Positions 8,079 to 11,532 of a DNA stretch of 64,000 nt are shown in pieces; positions within the stretch are counted from its first letter, which is position 1; each line of letters begins with the position of its first letter. Source of the stretch: Charina bottae. Its lineage: Eukaryota; Chordata; Lepidosauria; Squamata; Charinaidae. A program made the position numbers and the translations under genes. The stretch is from positions 78,474,355 through 78,538,354 of the forward strand of contig JALMGJ010000003.1 of NCBI GenBank assembly GCA_023362775.1, written 5' to 3'. The notes beneath the pieces are model-generated. The model was not told the origin of the DNA and ran no database searches. It saw only the letters and a list, made by a program, of their open reading frames with translations.

Positions 8079-9294
8079 CTGAAGGAAGCAGAAGACATTG
8101 GGTTAATGAGGTATGGCAAGAGGAACTGGGGTACAGCCCAATGCCCATATTTCTGGAAAATACAAATGCTTGTTGATCTCAATAAGGTATTTTTTGCAGG
8201 TTGAATATGGTGACAGAGTACATTAATATACCATCATCCTGACTCTAGCTACAATTGTCTCACACGGTAATTGGACTTTTTGGTTTCATCTGTCCCCCTA
8301 GTGGGTACTTATGTTTCCCATGTAACATTTCTTAGAGATGGTAGAAGGGGGCAAGAAGGAAAAAAAATTCAATACCATAAATTAATGGTATGTATTATGA
8401 CATACAGTATGCCCCCAAGTAAGGAAAATTGGGCATTATATAGCACTTGTAGGGGGAAAAACTGACTATTTGCTAGCCATTTTGTAAATCCTATGGTAAG
8501 ACTCTAACAGGAAAATATGGATGCTAAGGAGATGAAAAATGAGGTGAAATGGTCCAAAGCTGTGGGGGTCATTTCCTTGCTTCAAACATTCTGGCTCAAC
8601 ACAGGTAAACTCATTTGAAAGTCACATTTTACCTGTAGCCTTTAACATAGCTGACATGTAGGGAAGTGATGGATACTGAAATAATTAAAACAGGAAAGAA
8701 CCAGACAAAATCAGCTGACTGGAAAAAGTTGACTAGATATTAACAAGGTTGCATATGCTAACCTTTTTACAGTGATCTCTTTCTGTTGTGCCAATTCTTT
8801 TGTGATCTTTTAACATACTTTTGATTTTAGCCTCTCCAGTTCCTAAGGAAGATCTGGATGCTACATCCAACCTAGTATGTGCCTTGACTGTTGCTTCTGA
8901 CCAAGGTTATTCTGAGCTTCTCCTGTGATTAACTGAATGTGTATCAAAAATCTATCTGCCCCAAATCTAATCAATCATTCAGACTACTCCTTTCCTTACT
9001 TATGAACTAGAGAGAACTAGGATGGAAAGTGGCTATTGTCAGTCAAATAGTTTTTGTTCTGCCTTACTTACATCCAAAAAATTAGAACATTATCGGGTAT
9101 ATAGTTAATTAGGACTAAGAAGTTACTAAACAATTTGTCTAAGATATTCAAAATTGCAGGTTTTTAAAGCTCTCAGATCCCTGTTTATTTTTTTTAAAGA
9201 TCTTCAGTTCCATTTGTTTCTTCAATATGTTTTCAGGCTGACCACAATGCTTCTAAGGATTTCTAAAGACAGTCCATAATCTCTTCTGAGAAAT

Positions 9295-9567
9295 GTCTGT
9301 AGCTTGAATCATGTCAACTGGATTTCTATTTTCTCAGTGGAAACGTTTCGCTCCTTATCCAAGGAGCTTCTTCAGTCTGAGCAAAGTTAGTAAGGGAATC
9401 CTTAAATATGTTTCTAGGTGGCTGTGTGACCTTGCACCTGGGGCTAGGTCATGGTTATTTTGAGATGTTATTTCTAAGTCCCTTTATCATCTAAAGGAGG
9501 ATCGTTAAGATTACCATGCTGCTGTTGAGCTTGCGAAATGGTCTTAATCTTCCTAGGCACAGAAGAC
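9295..9567. repeat. Left arm of 273-bp inverted repeat
   Basis: Reverse complement of 9699-9971 with about three mismatches (near 9315, 9510 and 9529). It is the 3' terminal region of the Penelope-like element in its own orientation (minus strand). Confidence 0.92.
9340..9375 (-). ncRNA. Hammerhead-ribozyme-like motif in the Penelope 3' region
   Basis: On the minus strand the order is CTGAAGA, a hairpin with arms GCTCCTT/AAGGAGC and loop GGAT, then GAAAC followed by GTTTC. Box 1 (CUGANGA), stem II and box 2 (GAAA) are the hammerhead core, and hammerheads are known in Penelope-like elements. An extra A between box 1 and stem II, and a very short stem III, make activity uncertain. It is in the sense of the element's coding strand. 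Confidence 0.45.
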
Positions 9568-9697
9568 AAAGCAGGAAGGAAAATAGGGGAAAGATTGTGC
9601 CTGAGGCCCCCACCTCTATTCAAGGAAGGAGTTTCCAAGTTGGCATAAATGGATTCCTTGACCCCTCTCTCAAACCACCTATCTTCTCTGTCTAAAA
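9474..9697 (-). pseudogene. GIY-YIG nuclease C-terminus of the Penelope-like element
   Basis: The frame reads ILDREDRWFERGVKESIYAN, then ETPSLNRGGGLRHNLSP and LSSVPRKIKTISQAQ, ending at a stop near 9474. It matches the fragment at 1238-1501 almost residue for residue, so both derive from the same family. Only the last third of the nuclease is kept; the start is lost where the inverted arm begins. Confidence 0.8.
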
Positions 9698-9698
9698 T

Positions 9699-9971
9699 GT
9701 CTTCTGTGCCTAGGAAGATTAAGACCATTTCGCAAGCTCAGCAGCAGCATGGTAATCTTAATGATCCTCCTTTAGATGATAAAGGGACTTAGAAATAACA
9801 TCTCAAAATAACCATGACCTAGCCCCAGGTGCAAGGTCACACAGCCACCTAGAAACATATTTAAGGATTCCCTTACTAACTTTGCTCAGACTGAAGAAGC
9901 TCCTTGGATAAGGAGCGAAACGTTTCCACTGAGAAAATAGAAATCCAGTCGACATGATTCAAGCTACAGAC
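9699..9971. repeat. Right arm of 273-bp inverted repeat
   Basis: Inverted partner of 9295-9567, identical in length. Together the arms would form a hairpin with a 131-base loop in single-stranded DNA or in RNA. Confidence 0.92.
9891..9926 (+). ncRNA. Hammerhead-ribozyme-like motif, inverted-arm copy
   Basis: The same 36-nt motif as at 9340-9375, on the opposite strand because it lies in the inverted arm. CTGAAGA is at 9891 and GAAAC at 9917. The same limits on activity apply. Confidence 0.45.
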
Positions 9972-11532
9972 AATTCCACCTGGATGACTGAGAACCTTCA
10001 TAGACTCTTCTGAGAAACCATCACTATCCATTTCTATATGAAAAATTCCATTTCTCAGATCTTTGAGTATAAAGTGATCACACTCACATTTCATCTTTTG
10101 CCTGCAGTTCTGTGGAAGTCAGAAAAAGCTAAAGGCAGTGCAAGAACTGACCCAGGGTTTTAGAAAGTATTCAGTCAGTAACTGTACTGTAGAGTACTCT
10201 TCCGGGGTATAGCTGTGTATCTTAGGTAATCTCATGCATGAGTGTTTGTCCCCTCTTTTTGCATCAGTTGCCATTGTTTTTGTTTTATCCCTGACTCTCT
10301 AATGCTCTTAAGAAGAGGCCTTTAATGAGCAATTGTGCATTTCTTCAGCAGATGGAAGTGATCATGGGGCTCCATTCGCTCTCCTAGAATCTCATCCCAG
10401 ATTGCTATGGTTGTAATTGACTCAGTAATTACAACTGAGTTAATAACTGATTTTCTAATTCAGGGAGCAGAGATGCTTTAACTGCCTTGCAATGATGCAT
10501 TCAGGCCTGGGGATGGGAGACCCACTATTCCAGATAGTTTGTTCTTTTGCAATAGATTGAAAAGGATGAAACGTTTTCAAATAAGTTTTTACATCTATAA
10601 TTTTTTTTGGGGGGGGGGGGGCTCAGCAAATGCAAATGATGTGATCATTTTACAGATGTAACTATTTAAGTTGTCTAGATCTTCTGAACCCAGAAAATCA
10701 CAGGAATGGATATGCCATACTCCTGGAAGGATCAGACCTTTATTCATAAATCTTCTATATTTACACAGGTGGAATACATCCTCTAGGAACTGTGAAGCTG
10801 GGTGCTGACAATGGAGAGGAAAGCAAATGAAGAGAATTATAAATTATACCTTTTTCTCTCTCGCTGGGAACTTGGCTGTGCTGTGCTAAGTCACAGACTC
10901 TGCTTTCTTTTCCGTACTGAAGGGCAGTTTTTAAACTAGCATTTATAAAGACAGTGTTGATTCTAAAGTCATCACCCATAGTGACATGGTTTCAAAATTT
11001 GAACAAAGCTTTTGTTGAATTTTAAGCATAATAATCGCTGAACAGATTTTTCCCTGCCACGACTGTGAAATCCATGCCCATCAAAATTGCACTCAGATGT
11101 GCTGTTCTTGCATGGATGAAAAACCTTCATTTATTCAAAGATAACAACAATAATCAAATATTTCATTTGTTTTGACAAGACAAAATATTTTCAGCTGATT
11201 CTAAGCTTGTTGATAATTTTTGCAAAATGACGCTAGTTCATGGAAGATATTCATGAAGAAAAAATTGTTGTATGCCTTTTAGATATGCTCAGTAATTATA
11301 ATGCCAAATCCTTTCTGCCCAATTATTGTTTCGTTTGAATTATTTGGGTAAGAACAGGTAGTAACCTGACTAGAGGTGCATTCTAAGAAGAAACATTGCA
11401 AAAATCATATTGCTTTGAATAACACTTTGAAAATTTCAACCTGGTTGAATTTCTGTTGTGTGTTGGGGAATTAACTGTGCCCTGCTTCAAGCCACTTGTT
11501 TCTTGATGCCATATTATAGAAAACCTAGTTAC

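Follow-up and report, generated by a model that had tools for sequence, protein, structure and literature searches.

Fold-back insertions in the window

We analysed a 64,000-nt stretch of the Charina bottae genome (contig JALMGJ010000003.1), hereafter the window, in which a fold-back insertion derived from a Penelope-like element (PLE) lies at 9281-10017. This insertion, copy B, is a single insertion (9294-10004) of two head-to-head PLE pieces inside an exact 13-bp target-site duplication (TSD), CTCTTCTGAGAAA, found at 9281-9293 and 10005-10017. In a test of 19,937 random position pairs from the window, with 4 nt of slack, none reached a 13-nt repeat and one reached 12. The left unit (9294-9697, minus strand) is antisense PLE cDNA that runs from C-terminal coding sequence (ILDREDRWFERGVKESIYANLE...) through the pseudo-long terminal repeat (pLTR) and terminates with GCTACAGACA at 9294, the near or tail-less end. 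The right unit (9698-10004, plus strand) contains the same pLTR region in the opposite orientation, followed by a 32-nt tail that terminates with CATAGA at 10004, the far or tailed end. The two arms, 9294-9568 and the reverse complement of 9698-9972, differ by 3 mismatches over 275 nt. An earlier sequence-only reading had given 273 bp and about 99% identity, which was correct within two bases, and the exact 13-bp duplication that it reported was confirmed. Its 'spacer' (9569-9697, minus strand) proved to be PLE coding sequence from the C-terminal, endonuclease side, present in the left unit only and lying upstream of the position at which the right unit starts. Its 'leader' is the tail (9973-10004, plus strand), which occurs on the right arm only and corresponds to the sequence between two end types (cf. 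PMC11167929). At the inner junction, TGT (9698-9700) is common to both units.

A second fold-back, copy C (23019-23202), has the structure of copy B in reverse orientation. Its TSD, GGCAATGGAAAA, occupies 23007-23018 (12 nt; 13 counting the preceding A) and 23203-23214; the tailed unit (23019-23123, minus strand) has one additional A at 23019, and the tail-less unit (23122-23202, plus strand) has AG at 23122-23123 in common with it. On the ruler of element positions, the copy B units correspond to about 83-489 and 215-522 and the copy C units to 420-524 and 405-486, the outer ends having been entered manually with an accuracy of one or two bases. Copy C splits a short interspersed nuclear element (SINE; 22893-23263, plus strand), for which the paralogues at 49833-50008 and 7289-7455 represent the empty site. 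The copy C flanks joined with one GGCAATGGAAAA aligned across the site, with 163/176 positions identical to the first paralogue and 148/168 to the second. Because the paralogues align through the empty site, copy C arrived as one 184-nt unit.

In both copies every unit has sequence that its partner lacks, the tail on one side and upstream sequence on the other; in copy B the left arm has about 130 nt of coding sequence missing from the right arm, which in turn has the tail missing from the left. The sequence-only reading had proposed snap-back or template switching during target-primed reverse transcription. A self-copying strand cannot gain sequence it lacks, and neither arm includes the other; thus, snap-back alone was ruled out for copies B and C.

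Head-to-head pairs across the genome

The source assembly (1.8 Gb, 278 contigs) was searched, and the best 40 of 1,838 candidates were scored. One of these was copy B; the other 39 formed the score-selected set (L009-L047), for which stretches reaching 4 kb or 2.5 kb inward were fetched. These loci had been picked by similarity to the tail-less unit of copy B, so that a tail-less end was expected in each, the type of its partner not. A 29-mer just inside the tail-less 3' end of the PLE had 42,189 exact matches in the genome (21,019 forward, 21,170 reverse), and its reversed control had none. The first 100 listed places (C1:40,202-3,732,809) served as a sample without score selection. Among them, neighbours no more than 1,200 nt apart were minus-then-plus, that is head-to-head, in 27 of 27 cases; within 5,000 nt there were 32 minus-plus, 2 plus-plus and 1 plus-minus neighbours, and pair separation reached 4,001 nt. 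The 27 of 27 indicated that the head-to-head arrangement is the rule and no peculiarity of the window.

We examined the first 20 of these 27 close pairs. Together with the 2 window copies and 27 pairs from the score-selected loci (24 at the selected unit and 3 elsewhere, in L017, L020 and L021), this gave 49 pairs. Units without a partner in the stretch were left uncounted (L014 at 4000, L016, L017 at 4002, L018, L019, L020 at 4005, L021 at 3933, L027, L028, L033, L036, L042 and L044), as were L037, in which the partner was cut by the stretch end, L041, which had an odd-ended partner, and another pair in L014 (7328-7862), in which the unit on the right ended at ruler position 375. For ten unpaired units a second TSD was sought within the stretch, and none was convincing.

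One tailed and one tail-less end within one duplication

In every one of the 49 pairs a single outer end bore the tail (34 nt) and the opposite end was tail-less; the same held for the unselected pairs alone (20/20). The end class was assigned manually for 16 pairs and by a script rule for 33. The tail-less end was on the left in 25 of the 49. The TSD measured 12-18 bp in 48 pairs with a mode of 13 (27 pairs), the longer values including matching of the element's last bases. When the left end of one copy was compared with the right end of another, the longest repeat in 2,352 trials was 11 nt. The TSDs of the 48 pairs contained 70% A+T, and the window 62%.

The structure foreseen by the sequence-only reading (leader, inverted arm, spacer, direct arm and duplication) therefore recurs, with a 12-18 bp duplication in 48 of 49 pairs, and its notion of a single PLE-derived event in which the 3' end was copied twice in opposite directions was borne out as a recurring pattern in the genome. 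The leader does join the second arm, as the tail; the leaderless arm, however, is no faulty copy: it represents one of a pair of fixed end types, each found once per fold-back. Separately, AAA or AAAT was seen to precede many tail-less ends at the score-selected loci (L010 4006, L012 4005, L013 4003, L015 4003, L022 4003, L025 4003), which may reflect selection, as the query itself has AAA there.

Inverted duplications can occur in long-read sequencing, but a fold-back artefact of the reads or the assembly is scarcely credible here: the arms of copy B differ at 3 of 275 sites, complementarity is confined to the element itself (with matches at 13, 12 and 9 of 40 positions in the flanks), and TSDs flank 48 of the 49 pairs.

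Identity of the element

The minus-strand frame in the copy B spacer was 98% identical in DNA to 1240-1404. Its peptide had 78 relatives, of which two were named, both as hypothetical proteins (Xenopus tropicalis and Takifugu flavidus). Six relatives were scanned for domains. One matched GIY-YIG just below the cut-off (E 0.00033; 21.3 bits, cut-off 22.6), two gave GIY-YIG at E 0.09 and 0.15, one gave only VanW at 0.018, and two gave nothing. The PLE copies in the window cover the C-terminal part only; a reverse transcriptase domain was absent from them, and no search for it was made in longer copies. PDB yielded no match, nor did NCBIfam for three proteins, and no further copies were found in viral contigs, prokaryote genome contigs or phage records. 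A hammerhead-ribozyme-like core (CUGAAGA, stem II, GAAA; 9885-9934, plus strand) was recognised by eye in the pLTR, and its stem II folds. Endonuclease-containing PLEs of the Penelope/Poseidon kind encode a reverse transcriptase followed by a GIY-YIG endonuclease in a single open reading frame, and have direct or inverted pLTRs, at times with a 30-40-bp tail, a minimal type I hammerhead motif in the pLTR and short TSDs at AT-rich sites. The inverted arms with a 32-34-nt tail agree with this description, as do the short TSDs at AT-rich sites. We propose, as part of the best explanation, that the element is a PLE of the Penelope/Poseidon type. A weak likeness to the upstream pLTR (80% over 45 nt) was also observed at 14755-14798, by permissive blastn only; it was missed by nhmmer.

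Previous work on a purified Anolis carolinensis PLE (Poseidon PAc; Frangieh et al., 2024; PMC11167929) demonstrated that the enzyme differs from R2 and L1 in that it cuts and elongates both strands, and that it starts at two adjacent internal sites, the tail being the sequence between them. The start sites were alike for both strands, a dimer was predicted, and later steps were left open. The elements described here resemble PAc in the two adjacent start sites that bound the tail, in the proposed both-strand cleavage and extension, in a putative hammerhead motif and in AT-rich targets; in PAc, however, the reactions were separate and in vitro, and the main text describes no joined fold-backs (PMC11167929). 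The two end types in the C. bottae genome fit the two start sites of the Anolis PLE. Counting the final A of the hammerhead-like CUGAAGA (9897) as the start of the open reading frame (ORF) would place the far end at +108 and the near one at +76, against a commonest Anolis start of 111-118, a comparison based on the wording of PMC11167929 and not on aligned sequences.

Coupled inner ends and variable junctions

To describe the inner ends, the position of the tailed inner end minus that of the tail-less one was determined for the 20 unselected pairs. The differences were 10, 17, -1, 0, 17, -32, 9, 359, 1 and -5 nt for pairs 1-10, and 6, 0, 10, 13, 102, -1, -9, 16, 234 and 0 nt for pairs 11-20. 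The inner ends were thus no more than 20 nt apart in 16 of 20 pairs; shuffling gave a mean of 4.7, and 16 was never reached in 20,000 permutations. Inner coordinates were approximate in L065 and L066, where the units are in pieces, and in L051, at the ruler limit; without these three, 14 of 17 pairs lay within 20 nt, with 5.0 expected. Inner-end coupling is frequent, not universal, and it suggests one RNA common to both arms. Equal-time synthesis on two RNAs was rejected, since it predicts that the tailed arm lies 34 nt behind, whereas the median difference was 7.5 nt; the arms have position in common rather than time. A better fit is that both arms stop at the end of a common template, or that two transcriptases travel along one RNA, the one from the near site leading.

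Near-complete palindromes with small middles made up 29 of the 48 measured pairs; in the remaining one of the 49, L035, the tailed arm consists of the tail only, and the pair has no end-anchored arms. Such palindromes would be accounted for by a mixed model, in which a tail-less cDNA copies itself by turning back and a short tailed cDNA from the other target end closes the structure. The tail-less arm was longer in 11 of the 20 unselected pairs, as that model would have it, but the tailed arm was longer in 5. The model still requires priming at both ends, and a hairpin turn is not expected to give fillers, which the junctions contained. Among 15 inner junctions read, 5 had an overlap of 3-10 nt, 2 were flush and 8 had a filler of 4-52 nt; the filler was partly like neighbouring sequence in L050, L054, L057 and L063. 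The mixed model is therefore improbable. The junctions look like those of polymerase-theta-like end joining, which may be their origin. A master fold-back that spreads as a unit was ruled out, as the inner junctions differ between copies. The AT-rich 52-nt filler in L054 (267-318) is partly palindromic and had no ruler match.

Proposed priming at the two ends of a single staggered cut

Each pair has one TSD, all 49 combine a near end with a far end, the inner junctions differ, and the inner ends are coupled in the unselected sample. We consider it likely that target-primed reverse transcription of the PLE began at both ends of a single staggered cut and that the cDNA 3' ends were joined afterwards. 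The endonuclease cuts in the two strands would lie about 13 nt apart and so expose a 3' overhang on each side. Each overhang would prime an antisense cDNA, one at the far site, with the tail included, and the other at the near site, without it, so that each insertion would combine one far-site start and one near-site start. Both cDNAs would then extend toward the RNA 5' side, mostly stopping near the same RNA position, and end joining would unite their 3' ends into a head-to-head fold-back within one TSD. On this view, priming of the two strands would belong to a single event, both cDNAs would come from one RNA (both reaching its end, or one transcriptase following the other), and the middle would be closed by host microhomology or polymerase-theta-like joining. 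Because both ends would be primed on sense RNA, a head-to-head product would result without an antisense template.

Template switching, the other mechanism named in the sequence-only reading, or self-priming would have a cDNA from one target end turn onto antisense PLE RNA or cDNA and proceed to the other end. Self-priming on an antisense template was already proposed for Adineta vaga PLEs, with alternatives left open, by Arkhipova et al. (2013; PMC3846280), and the small middles in most unselected pairs have the look of a turn-around. However, this route requires an antisense molecule whose end coincides precisely with the second start site in all 49 pairs, whereas the two sites are already known to prime on sense RNA for both strands (PMC11167929). 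The 4-52 nt fillers also suit end joining more than continuous synthesis. Switching to an antisense molecule thus needs more assumptions than priming from both cut ends, and we regard it as unlikely, if slightly less so than the mixed model.

Several observations weigh against priming from both ends of one cut, or against parts of it. No complete pair was present in the fetched stretch for 15 of the 39 score-selected loci, which may be longer insertions or one-ended ones. The unpaired middle exceeded 100 nt in 15 of the 28 measurable score-selected pairs (the 2 window copies included), a set that favours long tail-less units. The repeat in L062 was only 7 nt, the sole exception among the 49. 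In copies B and C, the microhomology of 3 and 2 nt was within chance (P 0.06 and 0.17; 6% of random junctions had at least 3 nt and 17% at least 2 nt), and the target sites were not notably AT-rich (G+C 5/13 and 5/12). The outer ends of a third insertion, copy A (described below), are not at the pLTR start sites. Pfam gave no match for the two window peptides tried, and Rfam did not find the hammerhead at the gathering score or at E up to 10.

Finally, AAATGTCT at 9291-9298 and 9695-9702 brackets the left unit of copy B alone, as a nested insertion would. Six single-arm tests were run, and at random a repeat of 8 nt or longer turns up in 0.18% of tests. The bracket would be explained if one insertion had later received another, separate one at its 5' junction. 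However, the best repeat found around the right arm of copy B, or around either arm of copies A and C, was 3 nt long, and TGTCT, which comes after the left TSD, belongs to the element itself in the right unit of copy B and in copy C. Within its SINE, copy C forms a single unit, and one outer TSD is common to both arms in 48 of 49 pairs, which contradicts separate insertions; this explanation is very improbable.

Priming from both ends of one cut could be taken further. A stronger proposal, to which we give an even chance, is that PLEs ordinarily, and perhaps obligately, integrate by priming the two ends asymmetrically from one RNA, with a dimer, a 13-nt stagger, subunits at the far and near sites that run to about the same position, and host end joining. 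If two-ended priming is correct, PLEs prime both break ends by design and steadily generate palindromes in genomes. Under the stronger proposal, the 'optional tail' and pLTR inversion would be one phenomenon requiring no antisense template, and the small palindromes of this genome, tens of thousands in number, would be its direct footprints.

Comparison with known systems

Inverted pLTRs are a known structural class of PLEs. Arkhipova et al. (2013; PMC3846280) describe the typical PLE as having a TSD and inverted pLTRs, one of which may bear a tail. Adineta vaga Pen2a, as described there, has head-to-head pLTRs, a short TSD (8-10 bp), a tail of about 31 bp optional on one pLTR and variable 5' truncation, as found here; the C. 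bottae elements differ in that fold-backs occur in bulk, that a single tailed end is paired with a single tail-less one in all 49, that the TSD mode is 13 and that the inner ends are coupled.

Twin priming of long interspersed nuclear element 1 (LINE-1, L1), according to PMC4245944, likewise involves reverse transcription from both genomic cut ends, inverted segments and TSDs of 10-20 bp. Its geometry, two cDNAs 3' to 3' in one TSD, was found in 48 of 49 pairs, from which we infer simultaneous synthesis. The arbitrary internal second priming of twin priming was not found, as both ends lie at fixed start sites in 49 of 49, and the cDNAs cover the same RNA region, giving a palindrome rather than a 5' inversion.

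Arbitrary ends occurred only in copy A (1241-1612), which is flanked by 9-nt repeats of TATACACTA (1232-1621 with the TSD), its boundaries having been chosen after the repeat was noticed. It joins an antisense C-terminal part (1241 to about 1486) head-to-head to a sense, putative GIY-YIG part (about 1487-1607) that contains VVYAIQCSEECSELYI, 15/16 to P0001. The two parts do not overlap, and copy A resembles twin priming on one RNA of the L1 kind.

No statement of a strict end rule or of two-ended PLE priming was found in the literature examined, which consisted largely of titles and abstract openings, and two-ended PLE priming did not appear in the passages seen of PMC11167929, PMC3846280, PMC12910113, PMC8969392, PMC7761336, PMC4245944, PMC3649969 and PMC9148063. 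'Twin priming' and 'Penelope' were not connected in the portions covered: PMC3649969 had both in its reference list only, and the portion of PMC9148063 was without 'Penelope'. How PLE integration is completed is an open question, for which three features provide in vivo footprints: the strict end rule, a stagger of 13 bp and the coupling between inner ends. These tie the in vitro both-strand extension and two start sites to genomic inverted pLTRs, and they can be counted in any genome with such elements.

Other repeats in the window

The window also has L1, L2, BovB and SINE-like sequences, a set that points to a squamate reptile as host. A near-perfect 65-nt hairpin palindrome at 46312-46448, flanked by 8-bp repeats (CTCTAACC), is presumably a hAT-type miniature inverted-repeat transposable element. 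At 45379-45474, a 32-nt unit occurs in three exact copies at the end of an L2-like open frame. Related repeats in both orientations, rich in TGTCGCGACACA palindromes, were found at 27111-27420, 54594-54680 and 63368-63708.
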